From: Leclercia sp. S52
GTDB taxonomy: Bacteria; Pseudomonadota; Gammaproteobacteria; Enterobacterales; Enterobacteriaceae
DNA length: 64,000 bases
NCBI RefSeq assembly: GCF_039727615.1
Contig: NZ_CP152474.1
Location: forward strand, 2,542,001 to 2,606,000
Direction of reading: 5' to 3'
In this document: positions 15,713 through 33,172 of the stretch, piece by piece
Position numbering within the stretch: the first letter of the stretch is position 1
Layout of the letters: every line of letters begins with the position of its first letter
Position numbers and translations under genes: made by a program
The notes under the pieces: generated by a model
What the model saw: the letters and a program-made list of their open reading frames with translations, nothing else
What the model was told of the DNA's origin: nothing
Database searches by the model: none

Positions 15713-15736
15713 TGCTTTTAAATAAAAATAAATGCA
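15713..15736. promoter_or_regulatory. Operator site 1 of the catabolic island (gntR promoter)
   Basis: TGCTTTT-N10-AAATGCA, one mismatch from the consensus TGCATTT-N10-AAATGCA, ending 49 bases upstream of the GntR start. A further TGCATTT half-site lies at 15754-15760. The position suggests autoregulation. Confidence 0.6.
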
Positions 15737-15785
15737 ATAATATTTTTTAAATTTGCATTTATCTCTCCTGACTCAGGGCGCCTGC

Positions 15786-16679
15786 ATGAAAATTAGTGCA
15801 CTCACTGAACGTATTTCACAGAAAATCATGGGCTTAATCGACAACGGTGATATTGCTCCGGGATCGCATCTCAGCGTGCCGAAGCTGGCCGATACCTTCG
15901 ATGTCTCCCGCTCCCCGGTCCGCGAAGCCTTAGTGTATCTGGAACAGAAAGGGGTCCTGCTGCAAAAGCAAAACCGCGGGTTTTTCGTCAAAGAGGATTA
16001 CGCCCCGCAGGCGGATACGAAGCAAGAGCTGTCCGAGGAACTTGATCTGCCAGAGTATTACCAGCTTGCCGAAGACTGGCTGCGGGACGAAATCGAGTCG
16101 GAAGTGACCGAGCTGTTCCTGATGAAGCGTTATAACCTCACCAAGAGCCAGCTGTCCACCGTGCTCGCGCGCGGGATCAGCGAGGGCTGGGTTGAGCGTA
16201 AACAGGGCTACGGCTGGCGTTTTTTACCGGTGGCAAAAACCAAAACCGCGCTGGAACAGATTTTCAGCTTCCGTATGGTTATTGAGCCGATGGCCATCCT
16301 GGAGCCCACCTTTAATGCGCCCCAGGAGAAGATCAATGAGATCCGCCGCGAGCTGGAGATGCTGCTGGAGAGCGGGATTGAACGTCTCTCCCCTACCCAG
16401 CTGCAGCTGGCCGGGTACCGCTTCCACGAAACCATTATCGCCTTTTCCAACAATCCCTTTTTTGAGATCTCGCTGCGCAACGTTAACCGTATGCGTCGGC
16501 TGATGGACTATCGCATCATGGATGACCGCAACCGTTATTACGCTGAGGTGAAAGACCATATGCGGATCCTGGCTCTGATCGAAACCGGGCAGCGCATCGA
16601 GGCCTCCTATACCATGAAGCAGCACCTCTCCGTCGCCCTCGATAATAAGAAAATGCGCCGAATCAGCGCGGAAAGTTAA
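15786..16679 (+). CDS. GntR-family regulator with duplicated winged helix and FCD domain
   Basis: 297 residues from the ATG at 15786 (an upstream ATG at 15753 lies inside the operator region). The first winged helix (about 1-72: SVPKLADTFDVSRSPVREALVYLEQKG) is followed by a second winged-helix-like segment (about 90-155: LMKRYNLTKSQLSTVLARGISEGWVERKQG) and then an FCD-type helical effector domain (LEQIFSFRMVIEPMAI to the end). The doubled DNA-binding region is unusual for FadR-type proteins. It is the only regulator with its own site copy at the head of the island, hence the likely owner of the five operators. A strong terminator follows. Confidence 0.85.
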   Translation: MKISALTERISQKIMGLIDNGDIAPGSHLSVPKLADTFDVSRSPVREALVYLEQKGVLLQKQNRGFFVKEDYAPQADTKQELSEELDLPEYYQLAEDWLRDEIESEVTELFLMKRYNLTKSQLSTVLARGISEGWVERKQGYGWRFLPVAKTKTALEQIFSFRMVIEPMAILEPTFNAPQEKINEIRRELEMLLESGIERLSPTQLQLAGYRFHETIIAFSNNPFFEISLRNVNRMRRLMDYRIMDDRNRYYAEVKDHMRILALIETGQRIEASYTMKQHLSVALDNKKMRRISAES

Positions 16680-16688
16680 ACCCTCCCC

Positions 16689-16722
16689 AAAAAAAAACGG
16701 CTCACTCTGTGAGCCGGTTTTC
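16689..16722. terminator. Bidirectional intrinsic terminator
   Basis: GGCTCAC (16699-16705), TCT loop, GTGAGCC (16709-16715), flanked by A9 on the left and a T-rich run on the right. It separates the convergent gntR and CitMHS genes and can serve both strands. Confidence 0.75.
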
Positions 16723-16724
16723 TG

Positions 16725-18062
16725 TTAACTGGCGACCGAATAGACGGGGTAAAGCCCCAGCAATAATCCCGATCCCAGGAAGACCATGCACAGCAGGAAT
16801 GCCCACTTGAAGGTGTATTTTTGATGGTCGCTGAACTCAACCCCTGCCAGCCCCACCAGCAGATAGGTCGAGGCCACCAGCGGGCTTAACAAATGTACCG
16901 GCTGCCCCACCAGCGATGCCCGCCCAATCTCCACCGGATCGATGCCGTAGGCTTTTGCCGCCTCGGCCAGGACCGGCAACACGCCATAATAGAAGGCGTC
17001 GTTGGACATAAAGAAGGTGCCCGGAAGGCTGATCAGCGCGGTAATCGGTGCCAGATACGGACCCCAGGACTGCGGCAGAACGTCCAGCAGCGTGTTGGAC
17101 ATGGCGGTAACCATACCCGTTCCCGACAGGATCCCCGCGAAGATCCCCGCCGCGAGGAAAATAGAGGTCTGATTCAGCGCGGCGGGCGCGTGTGCCGCAA
17201 TGCGCTGGCGCTGTGCATCCAGATGCGGATAGTTAATCAGCAGCGCGATGGCAAAGGCTACCATGAACAGCACGGAGAGCGGGAGCAGTTCCATTACCAG
17301 CGAGGCCATCAGCGCCAGCGTTAAGGCGGCATTTAACCAGAACATTTTCGGCCGACGCAGCTCATCATTCACCTCATTGATGGCCGGCAGATAGCTTTCG
17401 GCATCTTCTTCAGTCACCGAACCATGCCCATTGGTCTGAATACTCAGTTTGCCCAGCCGACGACGTTCGCGGATGCCGATATACCAGGAGAGTACCAGCA
17501 CCCCCACCAGGCCGCAGATCATCGAGGGGATCAGCGGTATAAACAGCTCGCTGGATTCCACCTTTAATGACGCTGAGACGCGCGCCAGCGGGCCGCCCCA
17601 CGGCAGCAGGTTGGTGACGCTCCCGGAGAGAAACACCACACAGGTCAGGGCCAGCGGGTCGAGACGAATACGTTTAAACAGCGGAAGCATCGCCGTAACA
17701 CAAATCATGTAGGTGGTGGAACCGTCCCCGTCGAGAGAGACCATCGCCGCCAGCAGCGCCGTACACATCACCGCTTTGACCGGATCGCCATCAATAATGC
17801 GCAGGAAGAAACGAATTATCGGATCGAATAAACCCGTGTCGAACATGGTACAAAAATAGAGAATCGCGAAAATAACCATAATCGCGGTGGGCGCGACCTT
17901 CTTTAATCCCTCAATCATCATATCGCCCATTTCGCCACCGAAACCGGCAATAAGCGCAAACAGGATAGGAATAATAGTCAGGGCGGTCAGAGCGGATAAT
18001 TTTTTGGTCATGATCAGGATCATAAAGACCACAATCATGCCGTAACCCAGTAACGAGAGCAT
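16725..18062 (-). CDS. CitMHS-family carboxylate transporter 1
   Basis: 445 residues, about 12 membrane helices. The family's re-entrant signatures are present as SLDGDGSTTY and LLPWGGPLARVSA. CitMHS carriers bring citrate, often as a metal complex, or related carboxylates into the cell with protons. It follows the SDR gene by 73 bases and has no operator of its own, so it shares the SDR promoter. A second, diverged CitMHS carrier sits at 30939-32240 in the same island. Confidence 0.85.
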   Translation of the reverse strand: MLSLLGYGMIVVFMILIMTKKLSALTALTIIPILFALIAGFGGEMGDMMIEGLKKVAPTAIMVIFAILYFCTMFDTGLFDPIIRFFLRIIDGDPVKAVMCTALLAAMVSLDGDGSTTYMICVTAMLPLFKRIRLDPLALTCVVFLSGSVTNLLPWGGPLARVSASLKVESSELFIPLIPSMICGLVGVLVLSWYIGIRERRRLGKLSIQTNGHGSVTEEDAESYLPAINEVNDELRRPKMFWLNAALTLALMASLVMELLPLSVLFMVAFAIALLINYPHLDAQRQRIAAHAPAALNQTSIFLAAGIFAGILSGTGMVTAMSNTLLDVLPQSWGPYLAPITALISLPGTFFMSNDAFYYGVLPVLAEAAKAYGIDPVEIGRASLVGQPVHLLSPLVASTYLLVGLAGVEFSDHQKYTFKWAFLLCMVFLGSGLLLGLYPVYSVAS

Positions 18063-18135
18063 AAGGGTCTCCGACGCAGATATTGCTAACTGCGTAATGA
18101 AGGAATTTACGTTATTAAATTTTTTGGGGAAGCAA

Positions 18136-18879
18136 TTAACTCATGTGCATGCCGCCATTGACGGAGAAATTAGCCCCGGTGGCATAACCCGCCTCATCAG
18201 AAGCCAGCCAGGCGCAAATGGAGGCGATCTCTTTTGGCGAGCCCAGACGCCTGACCGGTATTTCCTGAACAATTTTATCGATGACCTGAACGGGGGTGAC
18301 CGTTTTCAGTTTGCTGGTGGCCAGATACCCGGGGGAGACGGTATTTACCGTCACGCCGCGCGCCGAAACCTCGCGCGCCAGGGCCCGCGTGAAGCCACGC
18401 ACGGCATATTTTGCAGTGGAGTAGTTAACCTGTCCGACGGTGCCAATCTGCGCATTGAGGGAGGAGATATTAATAATGCGCCCCCAGCCGCGCGCCATCA
18501 TGCTGTCCACCACCTGACGCGTCACGTTAAATAAAGAGTTCATGTTGGTATCAATAACCGCCTGCCACTCCTGAGGCTGCATATCGCGAAATAACACATT
18601 GCGCGCGGTCCCGGAATTATTAATCAGCACATCCACCTCACCCACCTCGGCGCGGATTTTTTCAAAGGCTTTCACCGTTGAATTCCAGTCTGCAACGTTG
18701 CCCTCAGAGGCAATAAAATCAAAACCTAACTTCCTGTTATCTTCCAGCCAGGCATCCTTTCTTTTTGAATTGGGCCCGCAACCGGCCACGACAATAAAGC
18801 CATCCTGCGCTAACCGACGACAAATAGCCGTACCGAGACTACCCATTCCAGATGTGACATACGCGATACGTTGGGTCAT
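18136..18879 (-). CDS. Short-chain dehydrogenase, PhbB/FabG-like
   Basis: 247 residues: VTSGMGSLGTAICRRLA cofactor loop, NNSGTARN, Ser in NISSLNAQIG, YSTAKYA, and the tail ASDEAGYATGANFSVNGGMHM. The closest family type is acetoacetyl-CoA reductase, but in this setting oxidation of a hydroxy-acid is more plausible. GGGAGAGGGGT lies directly before the ATG. First gene of a two-gene unit with the CitMHS carrier; operator site 2 lies 118 bases upstream. Confidence 0.8.
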   Translation of the reverse strand: MTQRIAYVTSGMGSLGTAICRRLAQDGFIVVAGCGPNSKRKDAWLEDNRKLGFDFIASEGNVADWNSTVKAFEKIRAEVGEVDVLINNSGTARNVLFRDMQPQEWQAVIDTNMNSLFNVTRQVVDSMMARGWGRIINISSLNAQIGTVGQVNYSTAKYAVRGFTRALAREVSARGVTVNTVSPGYLATSKLKTVTPVQVIDKIVQEIPVRRLGSPKEIASICAWLASDEAGYATGANFSVNGGMHMS

Positions 18880-18996
18880 ACCCCTCTCCCGTTGCAGTTT
18901 ATTAACATTCGCTCACTTCTTATTAACATTAAGCGGGGCACCGTGTGATTCCGCAACCTGACCTTGTTGGAAATGTGAGCAGGATCGTTCAAATTC

Positions 18997-19020
18997 TGCA
19001 TTTATCATCATTCAAATGCA
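18997..19020. promoter_or_regulatory. Operator site 2 (SDR-CitMHS promoter side)
   Basis: Perfect TGCATTT-N10-AAATGCA, between the divergent SDR and lactonase genes. The rest of the 310-base spacer (18880-19189) holds operator 3 and no gene. Confidence 0.7.
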
Positions 19021-19147
19021 ATTTAAGCGAGGTGCCAAAAACTGCACCTGCGCTTTTGGTTTCTCTGAACAAGGCTGAATAACGCTTTAAGCCACGAGCA
19101 AAGGGAGGACCGGCAGAGAAGTGAGAGAAATATCACAACATGTTAAA

Positions 19148-19171
19148 TGCATTTGTTATATAAAAAATGCA
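19148..19171. promoter_or_regulatory. Operator site 3 (lactonase promoter)
   Basis: Perfect TGCATTT-N10-AAATGCA ending 18 bases before the lactonase ATG, overlapping the likely transcript start, which fits repression. An extra half-site makes the palindrome AAATGCATTT at 19145-19154. Confidence 0.7.
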
Positions 19172-19189
19172 AACAGAATGGGAGTAATC

Positions 19190-20281
19190 ATGACAACCTA
19201 TGCTTATGTTGGCTGCCGGACCTCGGCATGGCGCGGCGCGCGCGGAAAGGGGATCAGCGTGTACCGGATTGCAGATTCGGGTCATTGGGAACTGCTGCAA
19301 TGCGTTGCCTCCGTGCAGGATAACCCCTCCTGGCTGACGCTCGATCTGCCGCGTAACCGTCTCTACGTGTTGCACGGCGATGGCGACCGCGTCGCGGTAT
19401 TTAACCGCGATCCTGACACCGGCCTGCTGAGCCTGTATCAGGATCAAACCACCGGCCCCCGCCACAGCAACCCGGATCTGGATCCCGCCCGCAGAAACAA
19501 TCCGGTCGGAGCCTCGCTGACGCCCGACGGCAACACCCTGCTGATCGCCAATCATGAAGGAGGCAACATTGCCGCCCTGCCCGTCAGCGATCGGGGCCTG
19601 GAGCCGCCAGTGCATCTTACCGCCATCGAAGGCCATACCGCCGCGCATGCCACCCTGTCGCGTCCGCATGAAATCGTTTTTGCCCCAGGAAGCGCGCTTT
19701 TTGCCGTGCCGGTTCAGGGCCGAAAGGCCGGGAGCGGCATCGACATGATCCGCCTCTATCACTGGGAGCGGACCCGCTCCTGTTTGGCCGATGAGGTTCA
19801 GCTCCCGGAAGGTAGCTGGCCGCGTCACGTTGATTTTCATCCTAACGGCAAGTGGCTGTATGGCATCAGCGAGCTGAGCAGCACCGTCACGGTTTGTCAT
19901 GTTGACCGGGAAAAGGGGACGCTTTCGCTCCAGCAAACTCTCAGCGCACTGCCTGCGGGCTATGCCAGCCGGAGCGATGCCAGTGAGATAGAGGTGCATC
20001 CGTCCGGGCGTTTTGTCTATGCCGCCAATCGGGGCCACGACTCCATCGCCGTGTTCAGCATCAATCAGCAGGATGGCTCGCTGACGCCCACTGGATGGGT
20101 GCCGTGCGGCGGGAAAACGCCCCGCTTCACCACCTTGTCACCCGATGGCGCACGCTTCTTCAGCGCCAATGAAGATTCCGACACCCTTCAGGTGTTCGAT
20201 GTCGACGGGGAAACCGGGATGCTGTCAGCAACAGAGATTTCAGTTCCTTCAGCCAGCCCAACCTGCGTCTGTTTTGTCTGA
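19190..20281 (+). CDS. Beta-propeller lactonase (6-phosphogluconolactonase-like)
   Basis: 363 residues from the ATG at 19190, which has GGGAG five bases upstream. The repeated WD-like blades characteristic of the lactonase family are visible: VASVQDNPSWLTLD, NRLYVLHGDGD, NTLLIANHEGG, HVDFHPNGKWLYGISE, EIEVHPSGRFVYAANRG and FTTLSPDGARFFSANE. The family includes E. coli Pgl and fungal carboxy-cis,cis-muconate lactonising enzyme. It probably opens a sugar-acid or polycarboxylate lactone in this pathway. The 3' end overlaps the convergent LysR gene by 33 bases. Confidence 0.85.
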   Translation: MTTYAYVGCRTSAWRGARGKGISVYRIADSGHWELLQCVASVQDNPSWLTLDLPRNRLYVLHGDGDRVAVFNRDPDTGLLSLYQDQTTGPRHSNPDLDPARRNNPVGASLTPDGNTLLIANHEGGNIAALPVSDRGLEPPVHLTAIEGHTAAHATLSRPHEIVFAPGSALFAVPVQGRKAGSGIDMIRLYHWERTRSCLADEVQLPEGSWPRHVDFHPNGKWLYGISELSSTVTVCHVDREKGTLSLQQTLSALPAGYASRSDASEIEVHPSGRFVYAANRGHDSIAVFSINQQDGSLTPTGWVPCGGKTPRFTTLSPDGARFFSANEDSDTLQVFDVDGETGMLSATEISVPSASPTCVCFV

Positions 20282-21191
20282 TCCCGCAGCCTGCTCCGTC
20301 GGGAGCAGGCTACCGATAAGCGTTTTTACCGACGGAGAAGCCTGCCCGTAGTCCCGGACACCAACAAGCAGCTCCCGTTTCGCCCAGGGCTCCGCTAATG
20401 GAATGACCCTGACGCCACTGTGCAGGGTTGAGGATGCCACTTCATTTACCGGCAGCACGGCAATCCCCAGCTGCTGCGCCACCAGCTCGGCCATCGAGAC
20501 AAAGCTGCTCACGCGCAGCCCAACGTTGAGGGTTTTACCCAAGGCGCGCGCCTGCCGTTCAAGGATATGGCTCACGGCGCTGTTGCGGTGCGAACCGATC
20601 AGTTTCTCATTGACGATGTCGGCAAAGGTCAGCTCGCTGCGCGCGGCCAGGGGGGTGATCGGGCCACACCAGCACCGAGAGGAGATCGTGCTGCCAGGGC
20701 CAGAACACGATCCCTGCCGCGGGCGTCCAGCTTGAGAAGAAGCCGACATCGGCCTCTCCTGCCAGTAACCCCTGCACCACGTTCATCCCGGTTTGCTCTT
20801 CGATCTCAATGTCGGTCTGCGGATAGAGCGACAGATAGTCACTCACCACCCGTGGCAGATGGTTCATCAGCGCCGCAGAGATGGTGTAAATACGGATATG
20901 CCCGCGGATACCGGCGGCATAATCACTCAGCTCCTCCTCCATCTTCTCAAGATTGCGGAACACCTGACGCGCATGATAGAGCAGGGAGTGACCCGCCGGG
21001 GTCAGGGTGATACCCCTCGGCAGACGCAGCATCAGCTGGGTGCCCACCTGCTGCTCCAGCTCGGCGATACGCTTGCTCACCGCGGATACCGCCGTGTGCT
21101 TCCTGCGGGCTGCATGGGTGAGGTTTTGCGTCTCCGCGACCGCCACGAAGAGTGATAAAGAGACCAGATCAAAGCGCATCGTTTTATCCAT
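20249..21191 (-). pseudogene. LysR-family regulator, apparent +1 frameshift, last gene of the catabolic operon
   Basis: The N-terminal helix-turn-helix (LSLFVAVAETQNLTHAA, TAVSAVSKRIAELE) and first effector subdomain read well until VWPDHP, where a G6 run (plus strand 20650-20655) shifts the frame. With five bases the protein continues LAARSELTFADIVNEKLIG to the stop at 20249, giving about 313 residues. The start lies two bases from the aconitase stop, so it is translated from the same mRNA. A LysR inside the operon suggests a second, pathway-specific control layer. A hairpin (20289-20297 with 20302-20310) in its 3' coding end may help end lactonase transcripts. Confidence 0.7.
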
Positions 21192-21193
21192 AG

Positions 21194-23842
21194 TTAATGC
21201 TTCAGTGTTTGCTGAATGACGTAAGGCAAAATGCCCCCGTGCCGGAGATAGCGCAACTCCTGCTGCGAATCCAGGGTCAGCGTCAGCCTGAATTCGCCCA
21301 GCAGGTCTGTGCCGCGCCGGATACGCATTCTCAGGGGCATGCAACCCGTCTGTAGATTATCCAGCCCGTCAACGTCAATCTCCTCTCGCCCGTCCATCTC
21401 CGGTAAACCCGCCGCCTCGTCAGGGGCGATATGCAAAGGCAAAATCCCCATTCCGATCAGGTTGGTACGATGGATACGCTCAAAACTGTGCGCCACCACC
21501 GCTTTCACGCCGAGCAGCGCCTGGGCTTTAGCCGCCCAGTCCCGGCTGGAGCCCGCGCCATAACGCTCCCCGGCAAAGATCACCAGCGGCGTCTCACGCT
21601 GGAGCCAGCTTTGCGCCGCGTCATACGCCGGCAGGATCTGCTGATGCTGCGCATCCCAGGCCTTGCCGCCGCCGCTGCGCTGCGCCGGCGGGAGCAGGCG
21701 GTTGACCAGGGCGGTATTGGTGAACGCGCCGCGAACCATCACCTCGTGATTGCTGCGCCGCGTGGAGTAAAGGTTCAGGTCCTGCGGATCCTCATGATGG
21801 TCAACCAGCCATTGCCCTGCCAGACTCGCAAGCGGGATCGCCCCGGCCGGTGAGATATGATCGGTGGTGACATCATCGCCTAACCACAGGAAAGGATGCG
21901 CGCCGGAGAGGGTCAGGGGCGCGGCGGGATCCCGGGGTAAGCGTTCCAGATAACCCGGACGACGCAGATAGGTGGAGGTCGCCTCCCAGGGATAGTGCAC
22001 GCTGCCGTGGGCTTCAATCTGCTGCCAGTGCGGAGTTCCCTGCCAGATAATGTCCCGGCGTTTTACGTAGTGCTCCGGCGTCATGATCCGTCCAAGCCAC
22101 ATTTCGATCTCCTCCCGGGAGGGCATTAAATCGCGCATGGTCAATGGGCGCCCGGCATCGTCAACGCCCAGCGGGTCGTTCACCATGTCGTGGGAGATAT
22201 GCCCGGCGATCGCCCAGGCAATCACCAGCGCCGGGGAGGTGAGATAGCCGTGCCCGAGTGAAGGGTTCACGCGGCGGGGAAAGTTACGGTTGCCGGACAG
22301 AACGCACACCGCCTGCAGCCCCTCGCTGACCAGCGTCTCCATCGCCGGTTGCAGGGCCCCCGAACTGCCAATGCAGGTCATGCACCCGTAGCCAGTGACG
22401 TCAAAGCCCACCTTCTCCAGTTCAGACAACAAACCCGACGCGCTGAGATAGTCGGTGACCGCCCGGGAGCCCGGCGAGAATGAGGTTTTGACCCACGGCT
22501 TTGGTCTGAGCCCGTGTTTCGCTGCGTTGCGGGCAAAGAGTGCCGCCTGAACGATCAGCCAGGGGTTTGCGGTGGTGGTGCAAGTGGTAATGGCGGCGAT
22601 GGCCACCGCGCCCTGACGGATCGGCTCCGGGTATTCAGGCCGAGCCCAGTGGCGATCCTTCGCGTTCGGGCTAAGCGTGTCGGCGAAGCTGCTGGCCGCC
22701 TGGCCCAGCGGGATCTGTTGATGAGGATTAACCGGCCCGGCCATGCAGGGTTCGATGGTCGACAGGTCGAGCGCAATCAGCTGGCTGAATTCAGGCTGCG
22801 GCCCATCCGCCGTGCGCCAAAGGTGTTGCGCCTGCATGTAAGTCCTGATGAGGGCCTGTTTCTCTTCGCTACGCCCGGTTAAGGCCACGTATTCCTCGCT
22901 GCGTTCGTCAAAGGGAAAGAACACCACCGTCGCGCCGTACTCCGGGGCCATGTTGGCGATGGTGGCCCGGGATTCAACGGACATGCTGGCTAACGCAGGC
23001 CCGGTGAACTCAACAAATTTACCGACCACGCCGGTTTCGCGCAGCAGACGGGTAATATGCAGGGCCAAATCGCTGTCGCTGACATCCGGTGACAGCGTGC
23101 CTGATACCGAAATGCCGATCACCTCGGGGAAGCTCAGGGTGACGGGTTCCCCCACCAGCGCGGCCTGCCCTTCAAGCCCGCCCACGCCCCACCCCAGAAT
23201 ACCGAGGGCGTTGATCATCGGAGTATGGCTATCAGTGGCGATCATGCAGTCCGCATGCAGGAGCGGCACCGGCGCGGTGGTATCCACCGTGACCACCTCG
23301 GCAATGGCCTCAAGGTTCATCAGATGGATGATCCCGGTGCCCGGCGGAATGACGCGGAAATTATCCAGACTCTTTTCAGCCCAGCGGATGAAGCGGTAGC
23401 GCTCCGCGTTGCGGCGAAAATCGAACTGCAGGTTCTCTTCCAGCGCCGAAGTGGAGGCATAGCTTTCGACAATCACCGAGTGGTCGATGGTCAGCACCGC
23501 CGGAATACGCGGGTTTATCGCCGTGGCGTCGCCGCCCAACTCGGTCGTAAGATCGCGCATCGCCGCGAAATCCGCCAGCGCCGGTAGACAGGTGGTGTCG
23601 TGGAACATCAGCCGATCGGGATAGAACTCCACCTCGCCTTTGTCTGCCGCCCCGGCCAGCATCTGTAAAAACCGCGGGAGTGCGTTCGGGGAGCGCAGCG
23701 CGACGTTTTCCAGCAGCACACGCAGGCTGAAAGGGATTGTCTCCAGCTGCGCCAGGGGCAGCAGCTGCGTGAGATCCACAAAGTGATAGCGCTGATGATC
23801 AATCACCAGATCTGAACGTTCGAGAGGCAGGGTTGATGTCAT
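21194..23842 (-). CDS. Aconitase-family hydratase (AcnA-like)
   Basis: 882 residues from an ATG preceded by GGAAG; a 54-base longer frame is possible. The 4Fe-4S ligands are present: one Cys in AITTCTTTANPW and two in GYGCMTCIGSSG. The swivel domain has AGERYGAGSSRDWAAK and the active-site DSHT and HLMNLEAIAEVV segments are kept. AcnA from central metabolism normally has SCTNTSNP and CTTCIGNSG, so this is a diverged paralogue. It probably dehydrates or rehydrates a tricarboxylate or hydroxy-acid of this pathway, paired with the dehydrogenase at 27571-28641. AcnD-like 2-methylcitrate dehydratase is an alternative, but no prp genes are near. Confidence 0.8.
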   Translation of the reverse strand: MTSTLPLERSDLVIDHQRYHFVDLTQLLPLAQLETIPFSLRVLLENVALRSPNALPRFLQMLAGAADKGEVEFYPDRLMFHDTTCLPALADFAAMRDLTTELGGDATAINPRIPAVLTIDHSVIVESYASTSALEENLQFDFRRNAERYRFIRWAEKSLDNFRVIPPGTGIIHLMNLEAIAEVVTVDTTAPVPLLHADCMIATDSHTPMINALGILGWGVGGLEGQAALVGEPVTLSFPEVIGISVSGTLSPDVSDSDLALHITRLLRETGVVGKFVEFTGPALASMSVESRATIANMAPEYGATVVFFPFDERSEEYVALTGRSEEKQALIRTYMQAQHLWRTADGPQPEFSQLIALDLSTIEPCMAGPVNPHQQIPLGQAASSFADTLSPNAKDRHWARPEYPEPIRQGAVAIAAITTCTTTANPWLIVQAALFARNAAKHGLRPKPWVKTSFSPGSRAVTDYLSASGLLSELEKVGFDVTGYGCMTCIGSSGALQPAMETLVSEGLQAVCVLSGNRNFPRRVNPSLGHGYLTSPALVIAWAIAGHISHDMVNDPLGVDDAGRPLTMRDLMPSREEIEMWLGRIMTPEHYVKRRDIIWQGTPHWQQIEAHGSVHYPWEATSTYLRRPGYLERLPRDPAAPLTLSGAHPFLWLGDDVTTDHISPAGAIPLASLAGQWLVDHHEDPQDLNLYSTRRSNHEVMVRGAFTNTALVNRLLPPAQRSGGGKAWDAQHQQILPAYDAAQSWLQRETPLVIFAGERYGAGSSRDWAAKAQALLGVKAVVAHSFERIHRTNLIGMGILPLHIAPDEAAGLPEMDGREEIDVDGLDNLQTGCMPLRMRIRRGTDLLGEFRLTLTLDSQQELRYLRHGGILPYVIQQTLKH

Positions 23843-23966
23843 AGGATCTTCCGTCACAGCAGTATTGTTATGTTCGTATGGGGATAACGTTGCCATGCCC
23901 GGGATGCGGTGAAAATTGAACTTTTGATAAGATAGCGTTCTCCGATGGAGAACGCTAAGAGGAGAG

Positions 23967-24644
23967 TCACGAAACGGCTAATTCTCTGTCGATAATCTGC
24001 TGCACGCTGCCCTCCGCCTGCCATCGGGTCAGGAGCGCAACGAGGTCCTGAAAGCGTTCATCGTTACCCCGCGGAACGCAGATAGCCTGGTTTATCTGAC
24101 CGAAATTGTCCGGCAAGACCCGGTATCCGGGGTGTTCCACGGCGGCGCGCGCCAGCGGCTGGCGAATGCCGGCCGCCATATCCCCTTCGCCGTTAAGAAA
24201 CGCATCGATGGCGGCCTGAGATGAGGCGAGCCGGTTCAACGTGGCGTTTTTCAGCTCGCGCGTCAGATGAAGATCGTAGGCCGCACCTTTACCGACGTTA
24301 ATCACCACCCCGGTTTTATCCATCTGCGCCACGCTGTGCCACGGACTACTGTCGTTAACCAAAACGGTTCCCTGAATCTGGATATAGGGCTGGGTAAAGT
24401 GCAGCACCTCTTCGCGCTGAGGGTCGACCGCCAGAAACGCGATATCCCAGAGCCCCTTCTGCGCGTCGTCCACCACCTTTCCGGCGGTCGGATAGGTTTT
24501 GAACTGCGCCGTTCTGCCCCACTCCGCGGCGATTTTATGCGCCAGTTCCACCGTGATCCCGCCTGGATTGCCGTCCGGCAGTTCCTTTGCAAGTACGGCA
24601 TTACCCAGATTAATGGCAAAACGCAGGGGTTCAATGGCTGACAT
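23967..24644 (-). CDS. Solute-binding-protein-fold protein without signal peptide
   Basis: 226 residues from an ATG with GGAGG six bases upstream. It has the SBP_bac_3 (type II periplasmic binding) pattern: ELPDGNPGGITVELAHKIAAEWG, KGLWDIAFLAVDPQREEVLHFTQPY, VINVGKGAAYDLHL. There is no signal peptide in this or the longer reading, and no ABC permease is nearby. The fold is also used by cyclohexadienyl dehydratase and by cytosolic enzymes or sensors, so it may be an enzyme or an intracellular sensor of the substrate. It overlaps the MFS gene by 14 bases. Confidence 0.7.
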   Translation of the reverse strand: MSAIEPLRFAINLGNAVLAKELPDGNPGGITVELAHKIAAEWGRTAQFKTYPTAGKVVDDAQKGLWDIAFLAVDPQREEVLHFTQPYIQIQGTVLVNDSSPWHSVAQMDKTGVVINVGKGAAYDLHLTRELKNATLNRLASSQAAIDAFLNGEGDMAAGIRQPLARAAVEHPGYRVLPDNFGQINQAICVPRGNDERFQDLVALLTRWQAEGSVQQIIDRELAVS

Positions 24645-26010
24645 GGGGTTCCTCCGGAAGACGGTTGCGGTCATGATTTTCGGTGTCAAAACTCAGGCGC
24701 TGAATTTTGCCGGCGACGAATAAATAACAGCACAAATTCAGGAAAGCGCAGACGCCCACGAAAATCAGCGCGCCGTTAAATGAGCCGGTGTCTTTAATAA
24801 TGTAGGCAATGATAATCGGCGTGAAGATCCCCGAAATATTACCGATCATATTAAACAGCCCGCCGCTTAAGCCGATCGCCTCTTTCGGAGAGAAGTCGGA
24901 GACCACACACCACCCCATCGCCCCGAATCCTTTACCGAAGAAGGCCAGGGACATGATGGCCACCACAATCCACGCAGAGTCCACGTAGTTGCAAATCACC
25001 ATGCTGACGGCCAACAGCATACCGATCACAATCGGCGTTTTACGGGCCGCGGAGAGGCTAAAGCCGCGGGAGAGCATGTAATCCGACAGTACGCCCCCCA
25101 ACAGCGCACCGGCGCAACCGCACAGCGCGGGTAACGAGGCGACGAACCCGGCTTTCAGAATGGTCATCCCGCGATCGTGAACCAGATAAACCGGGAACCA
25201 GGTCAGGAAGAAATACGAGAGCACGGTAAAGAAGAACTGCCCCATATAGACCCCAAGCGCCAGTCGGTTGGTCAGCAGTTTACGGGTATAGCCCTTGCCC
25301 GCTGTGTCACCCTTTTTGCTGGCTTTCAGGTTGGTCAGCCCCCCGCCAGACTGGATGTAATCCAGCTCTTCACTGTTGACCAGCGGATGGACCTTTGGGG
25401 TATCGGCCAGTACCCGGTGCATAAGCAGGGAGACCAGGATCCCCAGCCCGCCCATAAACCAGAACACCGACTCCCAGCCGAAGCGGTACGAGAACCAGCC
25501 CATCAGGGGTAAAAAGACCACCAGCGCGAAGTACTGCGCAGCGGTGGTAAAACCGGAGGCTTTGCCGCGTTCGCGCGCCGGGAACCAGGCTGCCAGAAAG
25601 CGCGAGTTGGCCGGAAGCGTCGGGGCTTCAATTAACCCCATCATAAAAATAAAGCCGAACATCATCACTCGGGTAACCCAGACGTTGTCAAACGAGGTGC
25701 TGAACCCCACCAGGAAAACGAATAGCGACCAGGTAAAGACCCCGGTGACCAGCACCCGTTTTGATCCAAAACGGTCGAGTAACCAGCCGCCCGGATACTG
25801 CCCAAGGACGTAAGCCCAGGTAAAGGTGGAGATCAGATAACCCAGCGCCACAATATCCAGGCCAGCGGCTATGACCATATCGGTCCCGGCAATGGAGAAG
25901 GTGGCGCGATCGTCGTGGTTTAAGGCGATACTTAAGAACACCATCAGCAAAATCATATAGCGATAGTGTGTGGGTCTCTTTTTTGCAGAAACAGAGTCAG
26001 GAGTTGTCAT
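24631..26010 (-). CDS. MFS transporter, anion:cation symporter (GudP/GarP-like)
   Basis: 459 residues, 12 helices, with the family patterns LNHDDRATFSIAG near the start, GGWLLDRFGSKRV, LPANSRFLAAWFPARERGKASG and the central loop PKVHPLVNSEELDYI. These are hallmarks of the ACS group that carries glucarate, galactarate, galactonate and similar acids with protons. It lies in the middle of the operon between the binding-fold protein and the amidohydrolase, so it is a third carrier for this pathway. Confidence 0.85.
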   Translation of the reverse strand: MTTPDSVSAKKRPTHYRYMILLMVFLSIALNHDDRATFSIAGTDMVIAAGLDIVALGYLISTFTWAYVLGQYPGGWLLDRFGSKRVLVTGVFTWSLFVFLVGFSTSFDNVWVTRVMMFGFIFMMGLIEAPTLPANSRFLAAWFPARERGKASGFTTAAQYFALVVFLPLMGWFSYRFGWESVFWFMGGLGILVSLLMHRVLADTPKVHPLVNSEELDYIQSGGGLTNLKASKKGDTAGKGYTRKLLTNRLALGVYMGQFFFTVLSYFFLTWFPVYLVHDRGMTILKAGFVASLPALCGCAGALLGGVLSDYMLSRGFSLSAARKTPIVIGMLLAVSMVICNYVDSAWIVVAIMSLAFFGKGFGAMGWCVVSDFSPKEAIGLSGGLFNMIGNISGIFTPIIIAYIIKDTGSFNGALIFVGVCAFLNLCCYLFVAGKIQRLSFDTENHDRNRLPEEPHVSH

Positions 26011-26024
26011 TCTTTTCGGCCTTA

Positions 26025-26864
26025 TCAGGAAGACGAAGCGTTAAATCCGTAAAGTTCAGCCGGGTTGTCGACAAATAATCTCTGCCGCACCCGGTCATGA
26101 CTTGCCCAGTGAAAAATCCTTGAGAGGATCAGGGCATCATCGGGCATGTTCTTATTGGCACTGATGAGGTTCGGGTGTGGCCAGTCGCTTCCCCAGAGCA
26201 CGCGCTCGGTGGCTTCATGTAAAAATCCTTTGATCACCCCCGCCATATCAGCCACGTCATCCCGTTGCGACTGATGGTAAAGCGCCGACAGTTTTACCCA
26301 GCAGCGCCCCGTCCCGATTAAGTCCCAGGCAAGTTTCCAGGCCGGATGCGACATCGGTTCGGGCTGCGGCAGCCGAAAGAAATGGTCTACCACCAGCCTG
26401 CCGGGGACCTGTTTAAGCAAAGAACGCAGTGCCCATAGCTGGTCAGCGGTGGCGTGGATCTGCACGTGCCAGCCGCGTTCGGCCACCCGGGACGCCAGCG
26501 GCAGCAGCATCTCTGGCGTGGTGATACAGCCCGCACCAAAGTTGAAGCGGATCCCGGTCACCCCGGCGGCAGCAAGGCCGTCCAGTTCAGCGTCGCTGAC
26601 GGTATCGGTGACCACGGCTTCGCCTCGCGCCGCCGCCCCAAATGCACGAAGCGCATCGAGCAAACAGCGGTTATCTGCCCCATAAGAGGAAGGCTGAACC
26701 AGCACATGACGCGTAAAACCCAGCCACTGCTTAAACGCGCGATAATCGCTGACGGTGGCGTCGGGTAAATTGCGCTTATCGTCCGGCGCATACGGAAAAC
26801 GCCGGTCAAAAATATGATGGTGGCAGTCACAGCTGTTCGCGGGTAATACGACATCGGGCAGCAC
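26025..26864 (-). CDS. Amidohydrolase-2 family lactonase (PDC-lactonase/galactarolactone isomerase type)
   Basis: 279 residues. The TIM-barrel metal motif CDCHHHIFD opens the protein; VLVQPSSYGADN, HVQIHATADQ, LVVDHF and the terminal VLWGSDWPHPN carry the remaining active-site His and Asp residues. This is the subgroup of 2-pyrone-4,6-dicarboxylate hydrolase and galactarolactone isomerase, which act on lactones of dicarboxylic acids. It follows the racemase gene after one base. A second lactone-acting enzyme beside the beta-propeller one suggests a lactone intermediate. Confidence 0.8.
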   Translation of the reverse strand: MLPDVVLPANSCDCHHHIFDRRFPYAPDDKRNLPDATVSDYRAFKQWLGFTRHVLVQPSSYGADNRCLLDALRAFGAAARGEAVVTDTVSDAELDGLAAAGVTGIRFNFGAGCITTPEMLLPLASRVAERGWHVQIHATADQLWALRSLLKQVPGRLVVDHFFRLPQPEPMSHPAWKLAWDLIGTGRCWVKLSALYHQSQRDDVADMAGVIKGFLHEATERVLWGSDWPHPNLISANKNMPDDALILSRIFHWASHDRVRQRLFVDNPAELYGFNASSS

Positions 26865-26865
26865 G

Positions 26866-27519
26866 TTAATTCATCACCCGTTTTAATTTATTTACCGCGG
26901 ACTGCGGGCTACTTAATACCGCGCAGGAAACGGCAGAACTGACCTGCGGGTAAGCGATCTCCATCGAGAAATGCGCCAGCAGAATGGCGTCGGCGTCCTG
27001 ATGCTGCAGGGCCGCCTCGACAATCAGCTGGTTATGAAGAGGGGCATTGCCAGCATTCAGAGCATCTCGCGCCCCCGGCACCACATAACTGCTCAGCGTG
27101 GCATCTACCTGACGCGCCGCCGCCAGCTCCCTGAACTCCTCTTCCATCCCTTTAACCGCAGGCCCGAAGGTGGCGAGCATGACGATATTCCGCCCTTTCC
27201 CCAGCGCATCCTCGAACATGGCTTCGTTAGGCTTTAGCACGGGTAAGTCTTTTACCTTCGCGCAGGCCTCAATGGCAGCGCCAAAGGCCGAACAGGTAAA
27301 CAGCACCGCGGCGGCATCAATGCTGGTGGCATAGTTCACCAGGGCATCAATACGCTGATACAGGCGCGGGGTGAGTATGGATTCTTTTGAGCGATCGACG
27401 CTCAGGGCGTCGTCCAGCAGATTGCTGATTTCGGCTTCCGGCCACAGCTGTTTAAAGGTGTCATTGATCGGCGTTACGGCCAGAGGGGTAGCGTGGATCA
27501 GGACAATACGTTGACTCAT
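26866..27519 (-). CDS. Asp/Glu/hydantoin racemase-family protein
   Basis: 217 residues with the two-cysteine racemase scaffold: LFTCSAFGAAIEAC carries the first Cys, while the usual second Cys region reads AILLAHFSMEIAYPQ, without a cysteine at the expected place. One-cysteine members include arylmalonate decarboxylase and maleate isomerase relatives, so an isomerase or decarboxylase of a dicarboxylate is more likely than an amino-acid racemase. Co-transcribed with the dehydrogenase upstream and the amidohydrolase downstream. Confidence 0.7.
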   Translation of the reverse strand: MSQRIVLIHATPLAVTPINDTFKQLWPEAEISNLLDDALSVDRSKESILTPRLYQRIDALVNYATSIDAAAVLFTCSAFGAAIEACAKVKDLPVLKPNEAMFEDALGKGRNIVMLATFGPAVKGMEEEFRELAAARQVDATLSSYVVPGARDALNAGNAPLHNQLIVEAALQHQDADAILLAHFSMEIAYPQVSSAVSCAVLSSPQSAVNKLKRVMN

Positions 27520-27537
27520 GGCTCTCTCCAGTTAACA

Positions 27538-27559
27538 GGCTGCCCGGGTTCGGGCAGCC
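27538..27559 (-). promoter_or_regulatory. Intra-operon hairpin
   Basis: GGCTGCCCG (27538-27546), loop GGTT, CGGGCAGCC (27551-27559): a perfect nine-base stem in the 51-base gap between the dehydrogenase stop and the racemase start. No U-tract, so probably a processing or stabilising element that favours the first gene. Confidence 0.45.
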
Positions 27560-27570
27560 ACAACCCCTAC

Positions 27571-28641
27571 TCAGGAGCGAATAGCCGCTGCCACTTTTTC
27601 CGCAAAGGCTTTGGTGCCGCATGTGCCGCCCAGATCCGGGGTGCGGGTCGCCGGGTTCTCCAGCACTTCGTCCACTGCACGGCTGATTTCGTCCGCCGCT
27701 TTCAGGAACTTCGGCTGGTTATGCTTCTCGGCATACCAGGCCAGCATCATCGCCGCAGAGAGGATCATTGAAACCGGGTTGGCTTTGTCCTGATTTTGAA
27801 TATCCGGCGCGGAACCGTGTTGTGCCTGAGCACAGCAGTGGGTGTCGCTGGCCATAATGGAACCCGCCAGGCCCAGGCTGCCAGAGAGTTCGCTGGCCAG
27901 ATCGCTAATAATGTCGCCGTAGAAGTTGGTCGCCACCAGCACGTCGAAGCGTTCCGGGTTACGCACCAGGTGTGCGGTGGAGGCGTCCACCAGCAGGTCA
28001 TCCAGCTGCACTTCCGGGAACTCTTTTGCTACGGTGCGCACGGCTTCGAGGAACAGACCATCCGTCATATGGAAACTGTTGGCTTTGTGGATAGCCGTCA
28101 CTTTTTTCCTGCGCTGCATTGCCAGTTCAAAGGCTTTACGCGCGATACGTTCAGAGCAATGGCGGGTGATTTTGCGGGTGGACAGCGCCATATCCGGGCT
28201 CGGCATGACCTCTCCCCAGCCGCGGGTCATATTACGATCCGGATAAAAACCTTCCGTGGCCTCACGCATGATCACCAGATCCATGGTTTTGCCCTCTTTC
28301 ATGTTCGACGTCAGGAACGGACGTGTGCGTGCTGGACGCACGTTCGCATAGAGATCCAGACCGATACGGAAGCCCGCCGAGACGTTACGTCCACCCTTTT
28401 CAGGCGCGGGATAGTCCGCGTGTGACTGGGTACCAAGGATGATGCCATCGTAAGTTTTTGCTTTATCCAGAGAGTCCTGGCGGAGCGTGGTGCCATATTT
28501 TTCCAGGCTCTTAAAGCCTACGTCTTCGTAATCAAACTCAAAACCCAGGCCGAAGGCTTTATCCAGTGAATTCAGCACTGTTACTGCTGCTGAGGTGATT
28601 TCAGGGCCGATACCGTCACATGGCAGAACCAGAATGCGCAT
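27571..28641 (-). CDS. Isocitrate/isopropylmalate/tartrate dehydrogenase-family enzyme
   Basis: 356 residues: LPCDGIGPEITSAAV at the start, the substrate segment NVRPAR, TEGFYPDRN, the Lys in IHKANSFHMTDGLF, and the metal-binding aspartates in NFYGDIISDLASEL. This family oxidises a (2R,3S)-type hydroxy acid and decarboxylates the product using NAD(P). The wording is closest to tartrate dehydrogenase and 3-isopropylmalate-like enzymes of catabolic clusters. First gene of a seven-gene operon (to 20249); operator site 4 lies 30 bases upstream. The natural substrate is probably the aconitase-family product. Confidence 0.8.
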   Translation of the reverse strand: MRILVLPCDGIGPEITSAAVTVLNSLDKAFGLGFEFDYEDVGFKSLEKYGTTLRQDSLDKAKTYDGIILGTQSHADYPAPEKGGRNVSAGFRIGLDLYANVRPARTRPFLTSNMKEGKTMDLVIMREATEGFYPDRNMTRGWGEVMPSPDMALSTRKITRHCSERIARKAFELAMQRRKKVTAIHKANSFHMTDGLFLEAVRTVAKEFPEVQLDDLLVDASTAHLVRNPERFDVLVATNFYGDIISDLASELSGSLGLAGSIMASDTHCCAQAQHGSAPDIQNQDKANPVSMILSAAMMLAWYAEKHNQPKFLKAADEISRAVDEVLENPATRTPDLGGTCGTKAFAEKVAAAIRS

Positions 28642-28671
28642 AAAAACTCCAATAGGTTGTTTGCTTTCGAT

Positions 28672-28695
28672 TGCATTTTTATATCAATAAATGCA
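28672..28695. promoter_or_regulatory. Operator site 4 (dehydrogenase operon promoter)
   Basis: Perfect TGCATTT-N10-AAATGCA, starting 30 bases upstream of the dehydrogenase ATG. The 324-base divergent spacer (28642-28965) also holds operator 5 and no gene. Confidence 0.7.
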
Positions 28696-28906
28696 TATAG
28701 CACAAGGTGATGGCGATCACATTTATCTGATTAATCTTTTTTGATTTAGCATTTTGTTTACCTTTCATGCACTTGCGTACCGTAAATTTTTACCGCACCA
28801 AGCGCCTGTCTTCTCTGAACATCCCTTCCATTGGGCCACAAGTGCTCTGATGTCTCAAATAAGGTGAAAAGTGTGATCTTAACCACGCTTTAACAATCAT
28901 CGTATT

Positions 28907-28930
28907 TGCATTTATAAATACATAAAAGCA
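28907..28930. promoter_or_regulatory. Operator site 5 (kinase operon promoter)
   Basis: TGCATTT-N10-AAAAGCA, one mismatch, ending 35 bases upstream of the kinase ATG. The variant arm is the reverse complement of the variant arm in site 1. Confidence 0.6.
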
Positions 28931-28965
28931 GTATAGCGACATTAACGGGTGTATGAGGAATGAAC

Positions 28966-30225
28966 ATGACCAAGTTAGGCGTTATCGCCGATGACTTTAC
29001 CGGGGCTACCGACATAGCCAGCTTTATGGTCAATGCCGGCTGGAAAGTGGTGCTTTTTAATGGCGTGCCTACGGGCGCATTCGACGCGCAGGATACCGAC
29101 GCTATTGTGATTGCTCTGAAGAGCCGTTCGATCCCGGTCAACGAGGCGGTGGAGCTGTCATTATCAGCCTCGACGTGGCTGCAGGCCCAGGGGTGCCAGC
29201 GACAGCTTTTTAAGTACTGTTCAACTTTTGACTCGACCGCTCAGGGCAATATTGGCCCGGTGACCGATGCCCTGATGAAGTTCCTCAATACCCCGGCGAC
29301 GCTTGTTTGCCCGGCGGTTCCGGATAATGGCCGCACCATTGTGCATGGCCATCTGTTCGTTAAAGGGGAACTGCTTAATGAGAGCGGCATGGAGCACCAT
29401 CCCGTCACGCCGATGATGCACTCCTCTCTGAAAAAGCTGATGGAGGCGCAGTCGGTGGGGCTGTGCGGAATGATTAATCTGGATAAGGTGAAAAACCACC
29501 CGGAAGAAATAGCGTCTGAGATTGAAAAACAGCTGGCAAACAAGGCCCGTTATTTCATCCTGGACGTGCTCGATAATCAGGATCTGCTGACTGTCGCCCG
29601 GGCCACGGCGAACTTCCCGCTTGTCACCGGCGCCGCCGGGCTGGGCTACGCCATTGCCACCCTGGATGAACAACGCGCGTCGTCCGGGAAGCAGTTGATG
29701 CACATTGATGCCCGCGGGGCCGGGGTGGTGCTCTCAGGCAGTTGTTCCGCTATGACCAATCAGCAGGTGGATTTCTATCAACAACGCGCCTCCTCCCTGG
29801 CACTGGATGTGGAAAAAATCATCCACGATCCCGCTTACCTGGAAACCGTCTCGCAATGGGTTGTCGCCCATGCCGCGGAACCGCTGGCACCGATGGTCTA
29901 CGCCACCCAGCCGCCGCAAATTATTGAACTTATCCAGAAACACTACGGTGCTGAATTCGTCAGCGACAGGATTGAAACCTTCTTCTCGACGCTGGCCCGG
30001 TCGCTGACCCTGGCAGGCTTTAACAAGTTCATTGTCGCAGGAGGCGAAACCTCCGGTGCGGTGACGCAGGGGTTGAACATTGAGGGGATGGTAATCGGTG
30101 AGCCGGTCGCGCCTGGCGTGCCCTGGACTCAGGTCCTCAACAAACCGCAGTGGGTCATTCTCAAATCCGGGAACTTCGGCAGCCAGGATTTCTTCCAGAA
30201 AGCACAGGAACATTATCATGAGTGA
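28966..30225 (+). CDS. DUF1537 four-carbon acid sugar kinase, OtnK-like
   Basis: 419 residues from the ATG at 28966; GAGGA lies six bases upstream. Domain 1 has GVIADDFTGATDIASFMVNAG and the domain-2 nucleotide site has IVAGGETSGAV and VPWTQV, both typical of DUF1537 kinases. Described members phosphorylate 3-oxo-tetronate, D-threonate or D-erythronate; those in OtnK position are followed by the OtnC decarboxylase, as here. It therefore probably makes a 3-oxo-tetronate 4-phosphate or a close analogue. Overlaps the next gene by eight bases. Confidence 0.85.
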   Translation: MTKLGVIADDFTGATDIASFMVNAGWKVVLFNGVPTGAFDAQDTDAIVIALKSRSIPVNEAVELSLSASTWLQAQGCQRQLFKYCSTFDSTAQGNIGPVTDALMKFLNTPATLVCPAVPDNGRTIVHGHLFVKGELLNESGMEHHPVTPMMHSSLKKLMEAQSVGLCGMINLDKVKNHPEEIASEIEKQLANKARYFILDVLDNQDLLTVARATANFPLVTGAAGLGYAIATLDEQRASSGKQLMHIDARGAGVVLSGSCSAMTNQQVDFYQQRASSLALDVEKIIHDPAYLETVSQWVVAHAAEPLAPMVYATQPPQIIELIQKHYGAEFVSDRIETFFSTLARSLTLAGFNKFIVAGGETSGAVTQGLNIEGMVIGEPVAPGVPWTQVLNKPQWVILKSGNFGSQDFFQKAQEHYHE

Positions 30226-30857
30226 AAAACAGTTAAGAGAGGATATGGTTCGCTATGCACGCTCCATGTTTGAACGCGGATACAGCAGCGGCGGCGCGGG
30301 CAATATCAGCCTGAAACTCCCGGACGGTCATATTCTGGCGACGCCGACGAACTCCAGCTTCGGCGATCTCGATGCGGACGCGCTGAGTAAAGTCACCATG
30401 CAGGGGGGAGCTCCTGTCCGGGGAGAAAGCCTCAAAAGAGGTGCTGATGCACCTGGCGATGTACCGCCAGCGCCCGCACTGCGGCGGCATCGTCCATCTG
30501 CACTCTCCCTGGCTTACCGCCCTGTCGTGCCTGCCGGGTATCGACCCTGAAAATGCCCTGCCGCCAATCACCCCTTATTACGTGATGCGCGTGGGTAAAC
30601 TGCCCGTGGTGCCTTATATTCGTCCGGGCTCGCCGCTGATTGCTGAGCACGTTGAAAAGCTGGCAGCGGAACATAATGCTATTCTATTAGCTAATCACGG
30701 CCCGATTATTTCTGGCAAAAATATCCGCGAGGCGGTATTTAATGCCGAAGAGTTAGAGGAGACGGCAAAACTTTATTTTATGCTCAAGCCTTTTGGCATG
30801 AATACCCTGACTCAGGAAAACGTCGACGAACTCAACGCCACATTTAATATGAAATAA
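30218..30857 (+). pseudogene. OtnC-like class II aldolase/decarboxylase, apparent +1 frameshift
   Basis: The first frame gives the class II aldolase start (YARSMFERGYSSGGAGNISLKL, LATPTNSSFG) and breaks at a G6 run (30403-30408). With five G the protein continues MQGELLSGEKASKEVLMHLA and on through HCGGIVHLHSPW, carrying the metal histidines, and AILLANHGPIISG to the stop at 30857, about 212 residues, normal for OtnC. Family role: decarboxylation of 3-oxo-tetronate 4-phosphate to dihydroxyacetone phosphate. If the extra G is real, the pathway would stall after the kinase. Confidence 0.75.
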
Positions 30858-30938
30858 ATAATAACGAGAAGCCCCTGCGTTAAATTATGACGCAGGGTTA
30901 GCCCTGCCTGTGTCACCCAAATTATAATAAGGTCGCTT

Positions 30939-33069: not shown

Positions 33070-33172
33070 AAAACTCCCGGAATGAATTATGCTGCGTAAC
33101 AGGAACGGGAGTATGCCCACTAATAATCAAGAACTCTGCAAGACTTTATCAAGGTTTAATCAAGGTGCTTAT

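Follow-up and report, generated by a model that had tools for sequence, protein, structure and literature searches.

Which protein reads the inverted repeat TGCATTT-N10-AAATGCA that recurs in the promoters of a catabolic gene cluster of Leclercia sp. S52, and what does it do there? The cluster spans positions 15713-32240, 16.5 kilobases (kb), of the window, the 64,000-nucleotide stretch of contig NZ_CP152474.1 analysed here (positions 2,542,001 to 2,606,000). A sequence-only reading had placed five such repeats in three promoter regions of this one cluster, near start codons, and had connected them with the GntR-family regulator encoded at 15786. A pattern scan of the window bore out the positions, the mismatches and the shared variant arm. 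The repeat is perfect at 18997, 19148 and 28672 and has one mismatch each at 15713 and 28907, where both imperfect operators carry the identical arm TGCTTTT. The sites are indeed confined to three promoter regions, 18 to 117 base pairs (bp) from a start codon. That observation is confirmed, and its interpretation is supported by the comparisons below. Judged from sequence, the five sites are probably operators through which the regulator, GntR, represses a local regulon, and GntR is very probably their cognate regulator. The operators are as follows.

15713..15736, no strand assigned: operator 1, gntR promoter (putative autoregulation), one mismatch, at the same place in relatives
18997..19020, no strand assigned: operator 2, SDR-CitMHS side of the divergent promoter between the short-chain dehydrogenase (SDR) and lactonase genes, perfect
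19148..19171, no strand assigned: operator 3, lactonase promoter, perfect, TATAAA within the spacer
28672..28695, no strand assigned: operator 4, promoter of idh (isocitrate/isopropylmalate dehydrogenase family), perfect, extended -10 TGnTATAAA in the spacer (minus strand)
28907..28930, no strand assigned: operator 5, promoter of otnK (kinase), one mismatch

To determine how specific the pattern is, we scanned the whole genome, a single contig of 4,932,897 bases. Five matches with at most one mismatch were found and all five are inside the cluster, so the many outside hits that would have spoken against an operator did not appear. Ten further matches have exactly two mismatches; they are scattered, with none in the window, and a backwards control pattern gave 14 genome matches at up to two mismatches. 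At up to three mismatches the window has eight matches with 3.78 expected, and three of 100 shuffles reach eight. Only the five strong sites therefore carry weight. A weak third site at 28748 (three mismatches, matrix score 5.2) was not counted because the alignment shows a similar stretch only in L098 and L099. An additional half-site, TGCATTT, is found downstream of the gntR operator at 15754-15760 and is kept in six of the 12 alignable clusters.

We then asked whether the sites accompany the regulator in other genomes. Homologues were gathered by GntR protein similarity alone, and the best 80 of 119 comprised 10 enterobacterial loci (L015-L024) and 70 distant ones (L025-L094), the latter 43-53% identical. 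Nine of the ten enterobacterial genomes together have 49 genome-wide matches (up to one mismatch), and 43 of these are inside the cluster. Over 14 Enterobacterales genomes with gntR the total is 65 of 74, with 5/5 in the S52 genome itself, 5/5 in G285, 4/4 in G294, 5/6 in G378 and 3/5 in G028; duplicate genomes were counted once (G331 repeats G252, and G193 repeats G249). Relatives that keep the genes therefore keep the sites, as the sequence-only reading would have them do. Fifteen other genomes had 1 to 4 matches each, counted as totals per genome. In three checked genomes where the regulator is damaged or missing, the sites are missing as well. Chimaeribacter arupi (L024, genome G255) has a damaged gntR, the match beginning at residue 44, only fragments of the neighbouring genes, and no operator match. 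G213 encodes an Idh 76% identical while gntR was not found at E 1e-60, and this genome has no operator match; nor does the same-species genome G315, from which gntR is absent. Among 246 genomes drawn from the family, the three with gntR each have three perfect sites (Fisher 4e-7), five others have one perfect site each, and none without gntR has two or more. G125 (L108) carries a single perfect site without a cluster gene nearby.

The distant loci gave the same result. A matrix built from 66 enterobacterial sites identified 129 sites in 58 of the 70 loci at score 12, whereas 40 column-permuted control matrices found a mean of 2.1 in the same loci (largest 15). The centres of 55 of the 129 sites lie within mechanical open reading frames of at least 200 residues, which cover 83% of those loci. 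With the arms themselves at up to two mismatches and a spacer of 10, there were 81 sites versus a mean of 2.28 for 209 other arm permutations (largest 21); a spacer of 9 gave 29 matches, mostly identical sites read one base off. The same kind of site beside distant gntR homologues ties the operator to the GntR protein. The assignment of the operator to the GntR encoded at 15786 is well supported by these alignments and counts, which show at the sequence level that operator and regulator are co-conserved. The operator follows gntR rather than the enzymes, and the sites are confined to the regulator's own cluster, as in a local single-cluster regulon. Weighing against this, nine of the 74 Enterobacterales matches are outside clusters, one of them perfect (G253, C40), and 12 of the 70 distant loci are without a site at the chosen score. 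In L019 (1680-6484) a paralogous cluster near the main one, whose regulator is 34% identical and whose Idh is 76% identical, is without this operator.

Chance or compositional matches in AT-rich spacers can be rejected as the origin of the repeats, since looser genome scans do give background (10 at two mismatches, control 14) but other arm permutations and spacers give few matches in the same loci, and the genome-wide, relatives' and distant-locus counts already refute it. It is also very improbable that the operator belongs to another DNA-binding protein, the LysR of the cluster or a global regulator, with gntR merely one target. A lysR gene is present in the cluster and is intact in most relatives, but no operator immediately precedes it, and the window copy carries a frameshift. 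The sites moreover track gntR over 70 distant loci that were picked by gntR alone and differ in their neighbouring genes, and they vanish with gntR in G213, G315 and L024.

What GntR reads can be described from the distant sites. Each arm has the form WTTG-SN-TTTTW, with 1.4-1.8 bits at each TTG and TTT position, 0.3 and 0.5 bits at the two bases between them, and little information at the operator centre. Because this second matrix was derived from the very loci on which it was then run (319 matches versus 30-100 for 20 column-permuted controls), only the shape of its profile was used. The operator consensus of the FadR subfamily is NyGTM-N0-1-KACNy, with named exceptions (PMC4494728), and TGCATTT-N10-AAATGCA departs from that form. 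In several distant loci operators come in close pairs, such as those separated by 33 bp in L060, L068 and L072 and by 38 bp in L045, L064 and L088. Two operators overlap with a 7-bp shift between the idh and transporter genes of L033 (12118-12148) and L042 (5841-5871). L120 has a further perfect operator at 324-347, 258 bp upstream of the one that precedes gntR.

The regulator itself also departs from the usual plan. Its predicted structure (a monomer model) has two tandem winged helices preceding the FCD domain.

15798..15995, plus strand: winged helix 1 of gntR (residues 5-70), detected by Pfam and also in the structure model
16044..16235, plus strand: winged helix 2 of gntR (residues 87-150), below Pfam cut-offs, from the model and profile comparison
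16242..16652, plus strand: FCD domain of gntR (residues 153-289), from Pfam and the structure model

Profiles of helix 2 and helix 1 match each other (92.6%, E 4.6e-7 one way; 68%, E 4.8e-5 in reverse), and helix 2 plus FCD overlies whole FCD regulators when models are compared. Winged helix 2 alone returned one weak unrelated match (E 0.65) among PDB sequences. GntR has the N-terminal winged helix and C-terminal FCD of the FadR subfamily, but the usual architecture has one winged helix per chain and the model shows two, making GntR a variant rather than a standard member of the FCD family. Its histidines H214, H258 and H280 are conserved in 56 of 56 homologues and stand where metal-binding FCD proteins have their ligands; the title of the DgoR paper names a metal-containing pocket. 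The two winged helices of each chain would read both sub-boxes of each arm, TTG and TTT, which would explain the wide operator. We lean slightly towards both helices contacting DNA. Two results weigh against this: the recognition helix is less conserved in winged helix 2 than in helix 1 (0.45 versus 0.67 over 69 of the 70 distant homologues, L053 with a stop codon being left out), and the model places the domains with limited certainty (pTM 0.62). An open-access literature search found neither GntR/FCD proteins with two winged helices nor this gene cluster. The modelled tandem winged helices before FCD are new with this analysis, as is an operator unlike the published FadR-subfamily consensus.

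How GntR may act was examined at the promoters. The CRP consensus is TGTGA-N6-TCACA, and sites with up to two mismatches to it were taken as CRP-like. We compared 13 clusters (the window, L098-L106, L115, L116 and L120); L107, from the 49% complete genome G028 and with stop codons in gntR, was left out of the spacing, CRP and -10 counts. CRP-like sites at invariant distances of 30, 30 and 39 bp from three operators in all 13 clusters are a further new observation.

19122..19137, plus strand: CRP-like site centred 30.0 bp upstream of the operator 3 (lactonase) centre, 13/13 clusters
19159..19164, plus strand: predicted -10 of the lactonase promoter, inside the operator 3 spacer
28678..28683, minus strand: predicted -10 of the idh promoter, inside the operator 4 spacer
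28706..28721, minus strand: CRP-like site centred 30.0 bp upstream of the operator 4 (idh) centre, 13/13 clusters
28872..28887, plus strand: CRP-like site centred 39.0 bp upstream of the operator 5 (otnK) centre, 13/13 clusters

With CRP set at -41.5, the -10 falls into the operator spacer at idh and lactonase. The idh spacer contains TGnTATAAA in 13 of 13 clusters, with a mean -10 match of 5.00 of 6 versus 3.46 in shuffled spacers (0 of 500 shuffles reach it). The lactonase spacer has three to five of the six -10 bases, with a mean of 4.31 versus 3.71 (5 of 500). The sequence fits the class II CRP promoter layout, a site near -41.5 with a matching -10, at these two promoters and not at the other three. 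A CRP-like site together with a -10 in the operator spacer makes a module where repressor and polymerase should exclude each other, and a lac-like blockade is likely at the two 30-bp promoters. Lac-like CRP-dependent promoters have the repressor over the -10/start region. Like them, idh and lactonase have a CRP-like site where -41.5 would be and an operator over the -10; what sets them apart is that the -10 sits within the operator spacer and that the distance stays the same in all 13 clusters. Two points limit this reading: the otnK, SDR and gntR operator spacers, whose promoters may be repressed in another way, show no -10 enrichment (491, 119 and 500 of 500 shuffles reach the observed match), and clusters related to one another entered the shuffle controls as if they were independent. 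The gntR and SDR promoters have no CRP-like site at a fixed place among the 13 clusters; only in L100 does one occur, 46 bp from the gntR operator. On the SDR side of operator 2, the block TGTGA-N6-TCGTT at 18974-18989 is largely conserved in the alignment and is possibly a degenerate CRP-like site.

These promoters also bear on the alternative that GntR is an activator and not a repressor at some or all of them, which we consider unlikely. The SDR operator is 117 bp before the start codon with no -10 in its spacer and could therefore be an upstream site, and the accessible part of PMC4746285 presents CitO, another FCD protein, as an activator. The site covers the predicted -10 at idh and lactonase, fitting repression. 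GntR would thus most likely repress, and covering of the -10 region is the likely means. Its control would extend to all five transcription units, gntR among them, making the cluster a self-contained local regulon, and bound GntR would keep polymerase off the putatively CRP-dependent idh and lactonase promoters until an organic acid, bound by FCD, releases it from the operator.

At each divergent promoter the two operators may in addition cooperate, and the conservation of their spacing is likewise new with this analysis. The SDR-lactonase pair is 150-152 bp apart (151 in the window; 140 in L103) and the idh-otnK pair 233-236 bp apart (235 in the window; 224 in L100), not including the extra upstream site of L120. 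The only large changes, in L103 and L100, are both -11 bp, about one helical turn. Between the modules the DNA is barely above shuffled similarity in six lineage representatives (0.47 versus 0.44, and 0.51 versus 0.46; one pair 0.61). The stretch that separates acnA from the gene after it varies between about 74 and 136 bp in nine relatives (tblastn ends, approximate). Spacing kept over nearly unrelated DNA, with both exceptions -11 bp, suggests helical phasing and looping, and paired operators may act through a helically phased loop. We regard looping as a real possibility that falls somewhat short of probable. In neutral simulations the probability for both pairs ranged from 0/4000 up to 0.34, the latter when indels are few and short, which counts against looping; the shorter segment was set at 112 bp, and its real length is 98-100 (88 in L103). 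So do the small number of independent lineages, about six, and the 228-bp spacing of L107, which has one site missing and does not fit. Double sites in divergons without a regulator gene act independently (PMC4494728), and that survey would predict independent sites at these divergons.

It is accordingly somewhat probable that GntR operators act singly, each blocking its own promoter without looping, and that spacing is kept for another reason. Each operator is close to one start codon, and the CRP-operator distances are rigid by themselves. That the length between composite sites is kept though the intervening sequence is not, with both exceptions at -11 bp, speaks for a loop instead. Atu1419, according to the accessible part of PMC7797058, is a tetrameric GntR repressor whose binding site is a 10-bp palindrome, and electron microscopy showed it looping the DNA between two sites separated by 190 bp. 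Similar to Atu1419, GntR has two operators across a divergent promoter, here 151 and 235 bp apart, with looping proposed; going by that part of the paper, the difference is that looping is proposed here from conserved spacing alone.

Like DgoR and Atu1419, FCD (FadR/VanR-type) regulators of organic-acid catabolism, GntR combines a GntR winged helix with FCD and local control of catabolic genes; it differs in the second winged helix per chain and in the TGCATTT-N10-AAATGCA operator. BusR, as far as the available portion of PMC8517857 describes it, is a GntR-family repressor that reads a bipartite motif 22 bp apart with a coiled-coil ruler and an RCK_C effector domain. It shares recognition elements at fixed wide spacing with GntR, which has FCD and a duplicated winged helix instead of the coiled coil and RCK_C. 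In its predicted workings the system resembles a catabolic regulon that depends on CRP and is repressed locally, and its regulator is a variant FCD protein. The sequence-only reading did not include the second winged helix, the CRP-like sites or the conserved inter-operator spacing. A GntR protein with a local regulon is a common arrangement, which keeps the surprise moderate; the open-access search met no tandem winged helix, wide two-box operator or promoter modules as rigid as these. The regulator gains a specific candidate operator, regulon and promoter mechanism, with a matrix that can be scanned across Proteobacteria, and the duplicated winged helix with its wide operator is a clean case for studying how an extra DNA-binding domain may alter operator geometry. 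Only tentatively do we suggest, as one joint and rather doubtful proposal, that GntR founds an FCD subfamily in which two winged helices read a ~26-bp four-box operator (TTG-nn-TTT ... AAA-nn-CAA), with a code kept from Enterobacterales to Alphaproteobacteria, a portable regulon moving with its genes, and helically phased loops from fixed CRP-operator modules.

The cluster is a predicted island for using an acid as food, with its own control gene. By gene order it has five transcription units, with one operator before each: gntR (plus); CitMHS and SDR (minus); lactonase (plus); a single minus-strand run from idh (28641) down to lysR (20249); and a plus-strand run from OtnK.

15786..16679, plus strand: gntR, GntR/FCD regulator, 297 residues (Pfam GntR 73.8 bits, cut-off 27; FCD 55.6 bits, cut-off 24.3)
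16725..18062, minus strand: CitMHS transporter (TIGR00784 559 bits, cut-off 259.7)
18136..18879, minus strand: SDR, family profile matches
19190..20281, plus strand: 7-bladed propeller lactonase family protein, family profile match
20249..21344, minus strand: lysR, two overlapping frames here
21194..23896, minus strand: aconitase-like protein (AcnA type), family profile matches
23967..24689, minus strand: family 3 solute-binding-like protein, family profile match
24631..26010, minus strand: MFS transporter, family profile matches
26025..26864, minus strand: amidohydrolase 2 family protein, family profile matches
26866..27519, minus strand: Asp/Glu racemase family protein, family profile match
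27571..28641, minus strand: idh, isocitrate/isopropylmalate dehydrogenase family, family profile matches
28960..30225, plus strand: OtnK-type kinase (NF043035 519.6 bits, cut-off 350)
30217..30857, plus strand: OtnC-like class II aldolase, two frames here
30939..32240, plus strand: second CitMHS-like transporter (230.8 bits, short of the 259.7 family cut-off)

The minus-strand run reads idh, racemase-like, amidohydrolase, MFS, solute-binding-like, aconitase-like and lysR, and the last plus-strand run OtnK, OtnC-like and CitMHS-like. The lysR gene is a single open frame in most relatives compared and is split likewise in L116; its split in the window is either real decay or a sequencing error. 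The OtnC-like aldolase is a single open frame in L099, L115 and L120, the three relatives in which a complete copy was located. In the 70 distant loci, many of them incomplete, idh is retained in at least 62, the racemase-like gene in at least 56, otnK in at least 55, otnC in at least 50, acnA in at least 37 and the amidohydrolase gene in at least 15. L030, the one distant locus examined for transport, encodes an ABC transporter. Similar to tetronate (OtnK/OtnC) catabolic pathways, the cluster has an OtnK above the NCBIfam cut-off for 3-oxo-tetronate kinase and an OtnC-like aldolase. Unlike in those pathways, OtnK and OtnC are joined to aconitase-like and isocitrate-dehydrogenase-family enzymes, and a lactonase, an amidohydrolase, a racemase-like protein and CitMHS carriers are also encoded.

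The regulator is rare and patchy. It was found in two of 50 genomes drawn from the genus (S52 included), in three of the 246 of the family draw, and in five of 37 and three of 61 genomes of two genera reached through relatives; one same-species genome is without it. The closest named protein records are from Leclercia adecarboxylata (97-98%). In searches for near matches only, the cluster had none in an E. coli collection, and one Pantoea plasmid matched 15% of it at 77.6%. The patchy joint occurrence of regulator and island (two of 50 in the genus) suggests that regulator, operators and enzymes travel together. After the cluster, at 32293-35043, are open reading frames resembling an outer-membrane protein, a response regulator and a sensor kinase. 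As this segment has no match in the same-species G315, the variable region is wider than the catabolic cluster.

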